In this document: positions 26,618 through 36,718 of the stretch, piece after piece
How the letters are laid out: the number at the start of each line of letters is the position of its first letter
How positions within the stretch are numbered: position 1 is the first letter of the stretch
Notes under the pieces: model-generated
Seen by the model: the letters and a program-made list of their open reading frames with translations, nothing else
Databases searched by the model: none
Told to the model about the DNA's origin: nothing
Origin: Deltaproteobacteria bacterium
GTDB lineage: Bacteria > Desulfobacterota > JAJRXV01
Length of the DNA stretch: 40,730 bases
NCBI GenBank assembly: GCA_024275075.1
Contig: JAJRZU010000072.1
Location: 1-40,730 of the forward strand
Direction: 5' to 3'
Translations under genes and position numbers: made by a program

Positions 26618-29281
26618 TTAAAAACCGTCACCCTTTGCGCCTTTTATCTTCATCTGCAATGCATATATTTTATTAAGCGCCTCGACAGGGGTCAATACGT
26701 TCACGTCAAGCTGCATCAGCTCTTCCTCTATCTCGCTATTGTTATTATGGAACAGATTCAGCTGCCGGTGATCATAATCCGGTCGTACACGCTTTGACAT
26801 CGCTATCTTCGGTAGCCCCACCTCGTTGAACTCGCCGCGCTCGATATTATTCAATATCTAATCCGCCCGCGCGATAAGCTCTTTCGGGAGCCCCGCCAGC
26901 TTCGCGACCTGTATTCCGTAGCTGCGGTTGGTGGAGCCTTTCACGATCTTGCGCAGGAATATCACATCACCGTTATACTCTTTGACGGCGACGCTGTAGT
27001 TCACGACGTCCTTCTTCATCCCCTTAAGGTCGCACAGCTCGTGGTAATGTGTCGCGAAGAGCGTCTTGGCGCCGACCCTTTTTTTGTCAAGGATATACTC
27101 CGCCGCCGCCCACGCTATGCTGAGCCCGTCAAACGTCGATGTGCCGCGCCCGATCTCATCTAATATTATCAAGCTTTTGTGCGTCGCGTTCCGAAGGATA
27201 TGGGCTGTCTCCTTCATCTCCACCATAAACGTACTCTCACCCATCGCGAGGTTGTCAGAAGCGCCGACCCGCGTGAATATCCGGTCAACCACACCGATCT
27301 TCGCCTCACGCGCCGGTACAAACGACCCCATCTGCGCCATCAGCACGATAAGCGCGACCTGCCTCATATACGTCGACTTGCCCGCCATGTTAGGTCCGGT
27401 GATGATCGCGAACCGGTTCTCGTTGCAGTCCAGGTACGTATCGTTCGGCACAAACCGCTCGCTCAGATTTATCTGCTCTATCACCGGGTGCCTGCCGTCG
27501 ATTATCGTTATCTCATCATCGCCTGTTATCTCGGGCATCGAATAATTGTTCTCGGCCGCCTTGTTCGCCAGCGACAACAGCGCGTCAAGGTTCGCCAAAG
27601 CGGCAGCCGTATTTTTTATCCGCCGCTCCTGCTCCCCTACCCTTTCGCGGATCTCCTTGAATAGATGGTACTCAATACCGGTGATCTTATCGTCAGCAGA
27701 GAGCACCTTGTCCTCATACTCCTTCAGCTCCTGCGTTATGAACCGCTCGGCGTTCACAAGGGTCTGCTTCCTCGTGTAGCGCTCGGGTACTTTTGCCAGA
27801 TGCGTCCTGGTCACCTCGATATAATAACCGAACACTTTATTGAATTTTATCTTCAGCGAGTTGATACCGGTCGATTCCCGCTCCCTAAGCTCTAATGACG
27901 CGATGAAATTCTTACCATGGCTGCTGATGCCCCTTAGCTCATCCAGATCGTTGGAGTAACCATTCCTGATGATACCGCCCTCCTTTATCGTATAAGGCGG
28001 GGACTCTATTATAGAATCGTTTATCAGGGCAGCGACATCATCGAGGGTATCCAGCTTCTTGGTCAATTCGCCAAGCCGCTTACTCTGAACATCTTTCAGT
28101 ATCCCCGCTATCTCAGGTAACAGCAAGAGCGAGTCCCGAAGAGCGATAAGGTCGCGGGCGTTACCAGAAGCCATCGCTATCTTCGCGTTTAACCGCTCCA
28201 TATCATAAACGTTTTTCAGCGCGCCGGTAAGCTCCTTCCTCACGCGCACGTTCTCCTTCAGCTCCAGGATGGCTTCGAGCCGCTCACCTATCTTCGCGGG
28301 GTCTACCAGTGGATAGTTGATCCACTTCTTCAGCAGCCGCGCGCCCATAGACGTCTTCGTCGCGTCAAGCACACCAAAGAGCGAGCCCTCCTTCTTCATA
28401 TCACGCATCGTGTGCATCAGTTCGAGGTTGCGCCGCGTAGATTCGTCAATGATCATATAATCTGTTACATGATATGATATGAGCCTGTTCAGGTGCGGGA
28501 TACCGCGCATCTGCGTACGCTTCATGTAATCCAGAAGGATGCGCAATGACTGCGTGGCGTCGCTGAAGCCCTTCACCCGAAGCTCATCAAGGTCACCATC
28601 ATCGAAGAACTCCGTCAGGTCATCGAGGCCATACTCGTCAGATAACCCATCATCGGTGATGCTTATCAATATCCCACCGAACCGGTTCCTTAGGCTGTCG
28701 GTGAATATCCCCTCCCGAAGCTGCTTCGTCGTGATTATCTCGCGCGGCTCCACCTTGTGGATCTCCGTGGTAAGGTCTGTCACCGAGCCCACCTGCGATG
28801 TGAACACATCACCCGTAGAGATATCGGCGTAGGCGAACGCGAACGCGCCATCACTTTCGGTGACGGACATGATGAAATTATTGCTCTTTGAGTCAAGGTT
28901 CTTGTCATCCATGACGAGCCCGGGCGTGACCACCCTGATCACATCCCTTTTGACGATACCCTTAGCGAGCTTCGGGTCCTGGGTCTGCTCACAGATAGCC
29001 ACCTTATACCCTTTTTCGATCAGCTTCGCGATGTAAGAATCGGCGGCATGGTACGGTACGCCGCAAAGCGGGATGTCGTCGCCCTTACTCTTGTTGCGCG
29101 ATGTGAGGGTTATGCCAAGCAGCTTCGACGCTTTGATCGCGTCATCGAAGAACATCTCATAAAAATCGCCCATCCGGAAAAACAGTATCGCGTCCTTGTA
29201 CCGCTCCTTGATACCAAGATACTGCTTCACCATCGGGGTCTGGCTGCCCGCCTTGCTCATGTTGTCAGTGGTTTTAGTCAT
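26618..29281 (-). pseudogene. mutS: DNA mismatch repair protein MutS, interrupted by in-frame TAG
   Basis: The first 807 residues (ATG at 29281; a GTG at 29290 is also possible) contain the mismatch-recognition motif FRMGDFYEMF, the lever and clamp regions, and the complete ATPase with Walker A GPNMAGKSTYMRQ and Walker B LIILDEIGRGTSTFDG. The frame then meets TAG at 26860-26858, after PKELIARAD. It continues without shift for 79 residues with the family's C-terminal features (QLNLFH, then LDVNVLTPVEALNKIYALQ) to a TAA. In relatives the stop position is an ordinary residue within the RAKEIL-type helix. The truncated form keeps all catalytic parts and would lose mainly the tetramerisation tail, so it may still function. 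Confidence 0.85.
26858..26860 (-). other. In-frame TAG within mutS
   Basis: The codon follows GCG GAT and precedes ATA TTG. The downstream 79 codons are clearly MutS. Glu (GAG) or Gln (CAG) would fit the helix and each needs one base change. See also the in-frame stops at 33539 and 36698. Confidence 0.9.
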
Positions 29282-32116: not shown

Positions 32117-33649
32117 ATGTCAAACGCACTTGTGATAAATAGTACACTTACCGAGACACGCGTCGCGCTGATCGAGAACGACGCGGTCGTCGAGCTGTAC
32201 ATAGAGCGGAAGAAGGATCGCGGTATTGTCAGCAATATCTACAAAGGGAAGGTGGTCAGGGTTCTGCCGGGTATGCAGGCGGCGTTCGTGGACATCGGTC
32301 TCGGGAAGGCGGCGTTCCTGTACGTCACGGATGTTTATGATGATTTTGATGAGTTTGATATGATAATGAAAGCAAACTCTGTCAATGGCGACAACATACC
32401 GATACCAATAGAGAATGAGGCAGTTGCGGAGAAGCCGCATCTTGCAGTCCAGATAGAGGATGTTTTGCGCGAGGGTCAGGAGATTCTGGTGCAGGTGTCC
32501 AAGGAGCCGATCGGTACCAAGGGCGCGCGTATCACTTCCCATATCTCACTGCCCGGCCGCTACCTTGTATACTTACCTACCGTCAACCATATCGGTATCT
32601 CCAGACGTATCGAGGATGAAGGTGAGCGGCAGCGGCTAAAAGAGATCGTGCAGGAGATAAGGGCTCCGGGCGCTGGATATATTATTCGGACAGTGAGCGA
32701 TGGCGAGACTGAGGAGGAGCTGAAGGCGGATATGGGGTTCCTGCACAAGATGTGGAGCAGCATCCAGCTAAAACGGGAGAGTGCGTCAGCGACATGTATT
32801 TTACATAATGACCTGAACATAACTTTAAGGGTGATCAGAGACCTCTTTACAAAGGATATCGACCGGGTGGTGATCGATAATGAGGAGGAGTACAAGAACG
32901 TCCTGGAGTTCGTCGATGCGTTTATGCCCTCTTTGCAGTCCTATGTGGAATACTATGACAAGGACGAACCGATATTTGACGCGTACGGTATTGAGGTGGA
33001 GATCGCGCGGGCGCTGGGCAGAAAGGTGTGGCTGAAATCCGGCGGCTACATAACTATCGAGGTGACAGAGGCGCTGGTCGCTATCGATGTCAATACCGGT
33101 AAGTACGTCGGTAAGGGTAAGTTAGAGGATACTATCTTAAAGACCAACTTAGAGGCGGTGAAGGAGATCGCGTATCAGCTCCGGCTTAGAAACATCGGTG
33201 GTATTATCATCATCGACTTCATCGATATGGAGAAGGAGATCAATAAGGAGAAGGTGTTCCAGGCGCTGTCCGAGGCGCTTAGGAAGGACCGGACGAAGAC
33301 GAACATCCTGAAGATATCCGAGCTTGGTCTTGTCGAGATGACAAGGAAGCGGGTGCGCGAGAACATCACCAGGATACTTTGCGAGCCGTGCTTTTATTGT
33401 GAGGGCAAGGGCTACCTGAAATCTAACATGACGATATGTTATGAGATAATCCGTGAAATAAAGCGTGACATAAGCGGGATAAAATTGAACAGGATACTGG
33501 TGAACGCCCACCCTGACATCGCCGACCTCTTATATGACTAGGAGTACCAGCTGTTAGAGGAGTTAGAAGAATCGATCAAGAAGAAGGTAATCATCAAAGC
33601 CAAGAACAACTTCCATATCGAACAGTATGAGATAATGGGTATTCAGTAA
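32117..33649 (+). pseudogene. rng: Ribonuclease E/G, interrupted by in-frame TAG
   Basis: The first 474 residues comprise the S1-containing N-terminal domain (GIVSNIYKGKVVRVLPGMQAAFVDIG), the RNase H-like and 5'-sensor regions, the catalytic metal site (VAIDVNTGKYVGKG and IIIIDFIDM) and the zinc-link CEPCFYCEGKG. TAG occurs at 33539-33541 after DLLYD. The same frame continues 35 residues (EYQLLEELEES, then FHIEQYEIMGIQ) to TAA at 33647, matching the RNase G C-terminus. Full length would be about 510 residues, normal for Rng. The catalytic core precedes the stop, so a truncated enzyme might keep some activity. RNase G processes 16S rRNA 5' ends and turns over mRNA. Confidence 0.87.
33539..33541 (+). 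other. In-frame TAG within rng
   Basis: The codon follows TAT GAC and precedes GAG TAC CAG. The downstream 35 codons belong to the RNase G C-terminal region. Glu or Gln is expected here, either of which is a single base change away. Confidence 0.9.
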
Positions 33650-35187: not shown

Positions 35188-35219
35188 ACACAGGGCTCTC
35201 ATCTCTAAGAGCCCTGTGT
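35188..35219. other. 12-bp perfect hairpin downstream of precursor gene
   Basis: ACACAGGGCTCT (35188-35199) pairs perfectly with AGAGCCCTGTGT (35208-35219) across an 8-nt loop. It starts 18 nt past the precursor stop on the minus strand. No U-tract follows on either strand, so it may stabilise the transcript end or act as a partial terminator. Confidence 0.75.
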
Positions 35220-35236: not shown

Positions 35237-35299
35237 TTAGCATGGGTGAACTGAAGAAGAACCAACTACTTTAGGCTTCATGTACTTGACTTTTTTCAT
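35237..35299 (-). CDS. Candidate RiPP precursor peptide, 20 residues
   Basis: The frame encodes MKKVKYMKPKVVGSSSVHPC. A GTGAGGT ribosome-binding site sits 6 nt before the ATG. The basic N-terminal half carries Y-x-x-P (YMKP), the motif that RRE domains bind in lasso-peptide leaders. The second half, GSSSVHPC, is small-residue rich and ends in the only Cys. It lies about 110 nt downstream of a SPASM radical SAM gene, preceded by a PqqD-like gene. Precursors of 20-30 residues are known for cofactors such as PQQ and mycofactocin and for some sactipeptide-like products. I recognise no described family with this tail; the product and the modification are inferred only. Confidence 0.65.
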   Translation of the reverse strand: MKKVKYMKPKVVGSSSVHPC

Positions 35300-35374
35300 G
35301 ATATTACCTCACTTTGAAATAAACTACTCCACAGCAAGCTGTTGTAGTATCGGATCTAAATCACATCGCAAACT

Positions 35375-35391
35375 GCGGGAATTAAGCCCGC
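35375..35391. other. GCGGG/CCCGC hairpin in the precursor leader region
   Basis: GCGGG (35375-35379) pairs with CCCGC (35387-35391). It lies between the terminator-like element after the radical SAM gene and the precursor start, so it would be in the leader if the precursor is made by readthrough. Confidence 0.5.
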
Positions 35392-35393
35392 TG

Positions 35394-35413
35394 AAAAAAA
35401 CAGGCGCGCCTGT
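35394..35413 (-). terminator. Intrinsic terminator-like element after radical SAM gene
   Basis: On the minus strand, the palindrome ACAGG-CGCG-CCTGT (35413-35400) is followed by an uninterrupted T-tract (35399-35394). It begins within the radical SAM stop codon. It would separate the enzyme genes from the downstream precursor, so the two may be expressed at different levels, by readthrough or from a second promoter. Confidence 0.6.
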
Positions 35414-36417
35414 TAAATCCAGCAATGCGGATCTGGATTGTTTATGTCACCGGTCAGGGACAGTGCGCGCGCCGTGCAGCCGCCTACGCACTCTTCATAA
35501 GAAGAGCAGCTCTTGCATTTACCTTGGGGCGTTTTGTTTCTCATCTTGTTTAACACTTCAGAATTATTCCAGACATCCTTCAAGTCGTCTGAAAGAATAT
35601 TACCTATTATTATATCAATGAACCCGCAAGGGGTTATACCGCCATTTGGCCGGACATGTAACGACACCTTGCCGCACGTGCTCCCTTTGACGAGCGCGTC
35701 CCGGTCAAATCCGTCGATCAGAGCCATGACAGGGTCGTCAAATGATATGCCTATGTCACTGTTACTATCCTTATACACTAATGCCTCTTTGTAGAAGTCA
35801 CGCCACTCACCAGGTGAAAGGTCAAATTCATCCCGGTTTAAGAACCCCTTACCGGTGCACTTGAAATTATGTAAAAATAGTTGTGATACGTGCCTCTTTT
35901 TTGCTAACTTTGCCAGCGCCTGAAAATCCTTATAATTTATCTTTGAGATAACCGAGCTCATCGTCGATTTTACTCCGGCTTTGTGCAGGTTCTCAAGAGC
36001 CGTTACCGCCCTTTTGAAACTGCCCTCCATGTTGCGGAACTTGTCGTGAACCGCCGCCCGCGAGCTGTCGATACTGATACCGACACTTGTAAAGCCGGCT
36101 CGCTTGATCTCATGAGCCATCTTCTCGTCGAGCAGATAACCGTTCGAGTTCATGGAGACCCTCAAGCCCTTTTGTACCGCATACGACGTTATCTCCATCA
36201 GATCGTTTATCAGTAAGGGCTCACCGCCACCAAAATTGATGAACGGAACCTTTGCCGCGCTTATCTTGTCAATGACCGATTTTACTTCTTTTGTCGTTAT
36301 CTCTTTATCGTTTGAGCCTCTTGAGTAGCAGTGCCCGCACGAAAAATTGCATGTGTAAGAAAGACTCCAGTTTATCGTAAGCGGAGTTTTTAAAAACTTT
36401 ACAGCCTCTTTATGCAT
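35413..36417 (-). CDS. SPASM-domain radical SAM enzyme, probable RiPP maturase
   Basis: 334 residues from the ATG at 36417 (a GTG at 36432 in the same frame is less likely; GGGTGG precedes the ATG). The radical SAM cluster motif CNFSCGHC has Cys23, 27 and 30, followed by FGGGEPLL and the NSNGYLL barrel strand. The C-terminal SPASM domain carries a full cysteine set: CGKVSLHVRPNGGITPCGF, then CKSCSSYEECVGGC and a last Cys two residues before the end (PHCWI). Such enzymes install Cys-to-carbon or carbon-carbon bonds in short peptides. The ATG overlaps the PqqD-like stop by 8 nt. The enzyme looks intact. Confidence 0.93.
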   Translation of the reverse strand: MHKEAVKFLKTPLTINWSLSYTCNFSCGHCYSRGSNDKEITTKEVKSVIDKISAAKVPFINFGGGEPLLINDLMEITSYAVQKGLRVSMNSNGYLLDEKMAHEIKRAGFTSVGISIDSSRAAVHDKFRNMEGSFKRAVTALENLHKAGVKSTMSSVISKINYKDFQALAKLAKKRHVSQLFLHNFKCTGKGFLNRDEFDLSPGEWRDFYKEALVYKDSNSDIGISFDDPVMALIDGFDRDALVKGSTCGKVSLHVRPNGGITPCGFIDIIIGNILSDDLKDVWNNSEVLNKMRNKTPQGKCKSCSSYEECVGGCTARALSLTGDINNPDPHCWI

Positions 36418-36718
36418 ACAAAAGCCACCCACGCTCGATCAGGTCTTCAATGAAATCCTCCACGTCACTCTTCAGCGTTTCCTCATCAATATCAAACTCA
36501 TCCTTTAGTGCATCAGCGATCCCGTTCAGATCCTGCGTCCCGTCACACAGCTCCCATATCCTGCCGCCAAGGTAATTTAGCTGATGCATCGTACCGGCTT
36601 CGATGAGTGTAACATACCCCTTTTCAGGGGCCTCATCGTCACTAAGAAGCTCTTTGACCTCTTCACCGGAGTCAGCTTCTATTCTATAAAATATATCTTA
36701 GTTTCTCGTTATCTTCAT
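36410..36718 (-). pseudogene. PqqD-like RRE protein, interrupted by in-frame TAA
   Basis: An ORF reading MKITRN, TAA (36700-36698), then about 95 uninterrupted codons to TAA at 36412-36410. The second part shows the PqqD fold hallmarks: GTMHQLNYLGGRIWELCDGT and DFIEDLIERGWLLYA. The family's usual N-terminal RNPD-type start matches MKITRN-x-DIFYR, so the TAA sits where a sense codon is expected. No ATG, GTG or TTG occurs between the stop and residue GTM, so re-initiation would have to use a rare codon. PqqD domains bind the leader peptide and present it to the radical SAM enzyme. It lies upstream of and overlaps the radical SAM gene. Confidence 0.8.
36698..36700 (-). other. In-frame TAA within the PqqD-like gene
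   Basis: Located after MKITRN and before DIFYR, in a frame otherwise open from 36718 to 36410. CAA (Gln), AAA (Lys) or GAA (Glu) could each become TAA by one base change. Confidence 0.85.

Follow-up and report, generated by a model that had tools for sequence, protein, structure and literature searches.

The window, by which we mean the whole stretch of 40,730 nucleotides of deltaproteobacterial DNA analysed here, encodes on its minus strand a GeoRSP radical SAM/SPASM protein (rSAM), a PqqD-like frame and a 20-residue peptide that ends in Val-His-Pro-Cys (Table 1). The VHPC peptides are a conserved family and more than the product of chance, and the case for their being the substrate of the GeoRSP system is strong. 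On balance we think it probable that these genes form a RiPP-type pathway in which one maturase acts on multicopy, dispersed precursors and the product serves giant secreted client proteins. The co-occurrence, the conservation, the operon placement and the family assignments on which this reading draws are direct observations.

Table 1. Features of the window (positions 1 to 40,730) and of loci elsewhere (L numbers are our locus labels).
Feature	Position	Strand	Evidence
GeoRSP radical SAM/SPASM protein	35413..36432	minus	NCBIfam TIGR04303, 468 bits, cut-off 400
PqqD-like RRE frame, TAA at codon 7	36410..36718	minus	TIGR04302 and PF05402 scores, codon comparison
Precursor-like peptide MKKVKYMKPKVVGSSSVHPC	35237..35299	minus	ORF sequence and 52 relatives aligned from the C-terminus
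12-nt inverted repeat ACACAGGGCTCT/AGAGCCCTGTGT, terminator-like hairpin	35188..35219	minus	Sequence
Giant multi-heme proteins with W-N-x-x-[TS]-P-W	L118 6382-14919; L119 2015-10405; L136, L137, L140, L142, L130, L134, L126		
Secreted Big_1/Ig-like proteins ending in a Biotin_lipoyl-type domain, followed by a VHPC peptide	L115 4624-7410; L134 5949-9140		

The original prediction, made from the DNA letters, described a SPASM radical SAM gene with complete cysteine sets and recognised no named family with the tail of this peptide. The cysteines are all present, in the radical SAM motif CNFSCGHC, in the SPASM motifs CGKVSLHVRPNGGITPC and CKSCSSYEECVGGC and as the final residue, and the rSAM/SPASM cysteines are unchanged across 17 homologues. 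The enzyme family does have a name, since residues 14-338 match positions 1-325 of the profile TIGR04303, "GeoRSP system radical SAM/SPASM protein". Judged by this match the enzyme is a member of a known but uncharacterised family of peptide-modifying enzymes, and our literature search found no paper on the GeoRSP system, TIGR04303 or SVHPC peptides. The next-best families, AhbD, MftC and NirJ2, score about 190-205 bits, all far under their own cut-offs, and the thio(seleno)oxazole maturase family (SbtM, TIGR04082) is not among the best 25 families listed for the protein. The nearest solved structures are those of peptide maturases, SkfB and then PqqE by sequence profile, and SkfB and SuiB by fold (Foldseek with an AlphaFold model of mean pLDDT 76). 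Gene boundaries here come from ORF scans rather than a gene caller; the limits in Table 1 are those given by a GTG start, while the first ATG gives 35413-36417 and ATG 36417 is the likely start.

Directly upstream is the PqqD-like frame, its would-be ATG at 36716-36718 and its end at 36410, giving an overlap of 8 nt with the rSAM ATG. It lies where it had been predicted, though it is interrupted by an in-frame TAA, unlike its counterpart in the sister genome (contig JAJRXV010000281.1), where codon 7 is GAA and PqqD is intact. The first start past the TAA, at 36589, would yield 59 amino acids with the Pfam PqqD match beginning at position 12. Read with X at the stop, the frame scores 74.6 bits against TIGR04302, which is under the cut-off of 100 but still the best-scoring family, and 69.8 bits against PF05402. 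Single in-frame TAA or TAG codons in conserved genes are also seen in the window at 33539-33541 (RNase E/G) and 26858-26860 (MutS) besides the one in PqqD at 36698-36700, and elsewhere in the same genome in a SPASM partner (L214, 6720), GroEL (L215, 6160) and a glycosyltransferase (L232, 10243). For both PqqD and the SPASM partner the sister genome has Glu at the corresponding codon, and in the other genes the stops fall at likely Glu positions; G-to-T changes in the assembly look a better explanation of these stops than recoding. Recoding of TAG or TAA as the cause of the PqqD stop was rejected because TAA, TAG and TGA all terminate ordinary genes; the genome has no PylS, and no CUA anticodon is present among the tRNAs read. 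One tRNA that closely matches tRNA-Phe (L159) has the anticodon TAA in place of GAA.

The 63-nt ORF for the peptide is present as predicted, with an ATG start, a TAA stop and GAGG 5′ of the ATG, and its product combines a leader motif, Y-x-K-P-x-V, with the C-terminal V-H-P-C. A hairpin with a weak T-run lies just past the stop, and the 60 nt 3′ of the stop fold with −26.5 kcal/mol; hairpins also follow many of the other copies, with T-runs in some. In all we collected 52 copies of the peptide, 42 of them distinct in sequence. Six positions, numbered back from the C-terminus, never vary: Cys −1, Pro −2, His −3, Val −4, Gly −8 and Pro −12. Position −10 holds Val or Ile, and position −15 holds Tyr in 49 copies and Phe in three. 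All four codons each of Val, Pro and Gly are in use among the copies, and every copy is preceded by an RBS-like sequence. There is no conserved continuation 3′ of the stop. Selenocysteine after the HPC was considered and discarded, as the stop varies among TGA, TAA and TAG from copy to copy and no conserved sequence follows it. The original prediction named the single C-terminal Cys or the His-Pro-Cys end as the target, and it is this end that is invariant; the suggested Y-x-x-P type of leader is kept as [YF]xxPx[VI] in 52/52 copies, alongside a detected PqqD domain. This motif fits the [Y/W]xxPx[L/V/I/F/A] sequence bound by discrete lasso RREs (PMC13381572), and PqqD-type RREs have been mapped to W/Y/LxxP-type sequences (PMC12710340). 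Neither a B2 protease nor a C cyclase, the further components of a lasso peptide pathway, was noted in the ORFs beside the RRE.

To see how widely the peptide and the enzyme go together we used a sample of 395 genomes of one phylum, 26 of which carry the rSAM gene. The pairing of a short precursor-like ORF with an RRE-like protein and a SPASM rSAM enzyme, as originally predicted, is real: in 11 of the 26 genomes with the rSAM gene a relative of the peptide lies directly 3′ of it, and homologous rSAM genes in several families are adjoined by a conserved short ORF that ends in x-V-H-P-C. The prediction was to fall if homologous loci had no conserved short ORF ending in SxHPC, and when this was checked it held up. 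A profile built from nine rSAM-adjacent copies and run over the same 395 genomes found matches in 28, comprising 25 of the 26 with the rSAM gene and three of the 369 without it (Fisher p 3e-35). Because the profile came from rSAM-adjacent copies, the independent part of this association is the 15 rSAM genomes that lack an adjacent copy, and 14 of these have a copy elsewhere. Most matches have E-values of 1e-6 to 1e-13, and most copies are far from the rSAM gene. The window genome has a second copy, identical to the first, on another contig (C12, L115). When nine of the peptides were scanned against NCBIfam no model matched even at E 10. The peptide was not detected in one rSAM genome (G175), and three genomes (G199, G246 and G362), all draft assemblies, have the peptide with no detected rSAM of the family; in one of these a GeoRSP-scoring YedE gene is on the same contig as the peptide. 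It might be argued from these three genomes that the peptide is a small protein that stands alone, for instance as a Cys/His ligand of a metal or heme in cytochrome maturation, and that its association with the rSAM reflects shared ecology. V-H-P-C is a plausible metal ligand and many copies are near heme proteins, yet the peptide directly adjoins the rSAM at 11 loci, the two occur together in 25 of 26 genomes and the RRE-type motif is conserved, and we regard this explanation as improbable.

The surroundings of the rSAM gene follow a pattern. At most loci the order is a PhnD-like binding protein, a TPR protein, a YedE-family transporter, often a NosD-like beta-helix protein, PqqD and rSAM, with the VHPC peptide and/or a SPASM partner 3′ of the rSAM. 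In the Geobacter-type loci, defined as those with top scores against the GeoRSP models, the transporter genes are 3′ instead. The window genome has its PhnD, TPR, YedE and NosD genes on another contig (C85, L215), apart from the rSAM. The window locus has no TIGR04304 gene adjacent to the rSAM; a gene resembling TIGR04304 is found on a further contig (C174, L214), where it has one internal TAA and adjoins a TIGR01977 cysteine desulfurase, and its score of 128 bits against a cut-off of 300 marks it as a distant relative. A TIGR04304 SPASM protein over the cut-off, at 337 bits, is present at the locus of G025. The cassette, which the original prediction called compact, is not self-contained, since the VHPC peptides occur in many scattered copies and since the YedE/PhnD/NosD operon and the distant relative of the SPASM partner are found elsewhere in the genome, on other contigs.

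A YedE-family gene is found in all 26 rSAM genomes, within the rSAM operon in most. Intact genes of the GeoRSP type score 293-411 bits, as against 429-502 for the canonical form found in other genomes, and two genomes carry both bands, the GeoRSP-associated and the canonical. The pair of TIGR04304 relative and TIGR01977 cysteine desulfurase occurs in three genomes, the window genome, its sister and G324 (L214, L216 and L068). The universal and distinct transporter gene, mostly inside the rSAM operon, and the neighbouring desulfurase together speak for a sulfur or selenium system, in which the cysteine would be loaded or converted by way of the YedE-type transporter and the cysteine desulfurase and the rSAM would complete an S/Se cofactor. 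We nevertheless consider such a system rather unlikely, since what the YedE and TIGR01977 families do is itself predicted, the desulfurase link was found in just three genomes and the TGA after HPC is a stop and not Sec.

The dispersed copies have distinctive neighbours. Among the 40 examined, 22 start 36-107 nt past the stop of a large co-directional ORF. These large ORFs include multi-heme proteins of about 1,470-2,850 residues with at least 11 heme motifs, Ig-like proteins with a C-terminal Biotin_lipoyl domain, such as the one 5′ of the second copy in the window genome (L115), and propeller-like proteins. Several of the giant multi-heme proteins share an extreme C-terminal W-N-x-x-[TS]-P-W, and these often lie directly 5′ of a VHPC gene. 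In the window genome the Biotin_lipoyl-type domain appears to be without the lipoyl lysine motif. At L124, L122 and L151 neighbouring secreted proteins have glycine-rich tails of the GGGGGGCF[LI] type, resembling a C-terminal sorting signal. Of 37 copies, 23 have a protein with at least four CXXCH motifs no more than 6 kb away, whereas this is true of one of 20 arbitrary regions taken from the same genomes (p 2e-5); copies within one genome are not independent in this comparison, and 17 of 22 genomes show the association. Since roughly every second dispersed copy lacks a large client immediately upstream, the link to clients may be partial or indirect.

Whether the peptide could instead be an ordinary antimicrobial or signalling RiPP, with the modified GSSSVHPC tail cleaved, exported and acting on other cells, also turns on these neighbours. 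A precursor with an RRE and a SPASM rSAM is the usual grammar of RiPPs. Against this, the last four residues are invariant in 52 copies from many families where antibiotic cores usually diversify, and the copies belong to operons that encode cytochromes and other secreted proteins; nor was a recurrent exporter or immunity gene noticed in the neighbourhoods listed. We think it very unlikely that the product acts in this way. The invariant core, the dispersal and the placement beside clients favour a cofactor or coupling role over antibiotic activity, and of the product types originally put forward a cofactor-like one fits better than an antibiotic.

For the GeoRSP pathway that we favour, we infer the RRE binding, the chemistry and the role of the product as follows. 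The PqqD-like RRE would bind the leader at [YF]xxPx[VI] and so bring the GxSxVHPC tail at the C-terminus to the SPASM rSAM enzyme, and this enzyme would oxidatively modify the invariant V-H-P-C end. The likeliest reactions would seem to be cross-linking within VHPC, through a thioether or a C-C bond, or attack on the Cys at the C-terminus. The sequence is equally compatible with a thioether, as made by SkfB, and with an attack on the C-terminus, as carried out by MftC on mycofactocin. Rather than an antibiotic, the product would presumably be a small prosthetic group, a cofactor or a coupling unit that giant secreted proteins use; this client role is proposed because the dispersed precursor genes end operons of such proteins. 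The candidate clients would be the multi-heme cytochromes, the Ig-like proteins with a lipoyl-type domain and the propeller and FG-GAP proteins. A more detailed version, which we put forward tentatively as a possibility, is that the maturase processes near-identical dispersed VHPC precursors co-transcribed with giant clients, for example a cytochrome with 10-36 hemes or an Ig protein with a lipoyl domain, to give the prosthetic or coupling unit of these clients, possibly with sulfur or selenium delivered by YedE.

GeoRSP is a system that has a name but, in the literature searched, no description as a peptide-modification system. With a substrate family of 52 collected members, and with a peptide, an RRE and an enzyme that are all small and open to co-expression, it becomes directly testable. 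If the link to clients is true, radical SAM peptide chemistry would be tied to surface proteins of the Deltaproteobacteria, giant multi-heme cytochromes among them, which would connect it unexpectedly with extracellular electron transfer. The enzyme family was already known; as far as our searches reached, there seems to be no earlier description of the precursor family, of its many scattered copies or of their position after giant secreted proteins.

Compared with the GeoRSP system as modelled (TIGR04302 PqqD, TIGR04303 rSAM/SPASM and TIGR04304 SPASM), the window has an rSAM over the cut-off with a PqqD-like gene directly upstream, but this PqqD is interrupted and under its cut-off, TIGR04304 is not adjacent and no precursor family is matched in NCBIfam. 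Mycofactocin (MftA/MftB/MftC) is a cofactor-type RiPP that is similarly made from a short precursor with a conserved C-terminus by an RRE-like protein and a SPASM rSAM; here, however, the C-terminus is VHPC, there are many dispersed precursor copies and the window rSAM scores 191 bits against the TIGR03962 cut-off of 265. PQQ (PqqA/PqqD/PqqE) likewise has a precursor of about 20 residues, a PqqD-type RRE and a SPASM rSAM, but the window rSAM reaches 120 bits with TIGR02109 where the cut-off is 381, and the tail of the window peptide is without the Glu/Tyr pair. The sactipeptide maturase SkfB is the best solved relative of the enzyme by both sequence and fold and its substrate has Cys in the core, whereas the VHPC peptides have a single terminal Cys, an invariant end of four residues and many genomic copies. 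In multi-precursor RiPPs with a single maturase, such as the prochlorosins, one enzyme serves several scattered precursor genes; the VHPC family differs from these in having an invariant core and in the frequent association of its copies with operons that encode giant secreted proteins.
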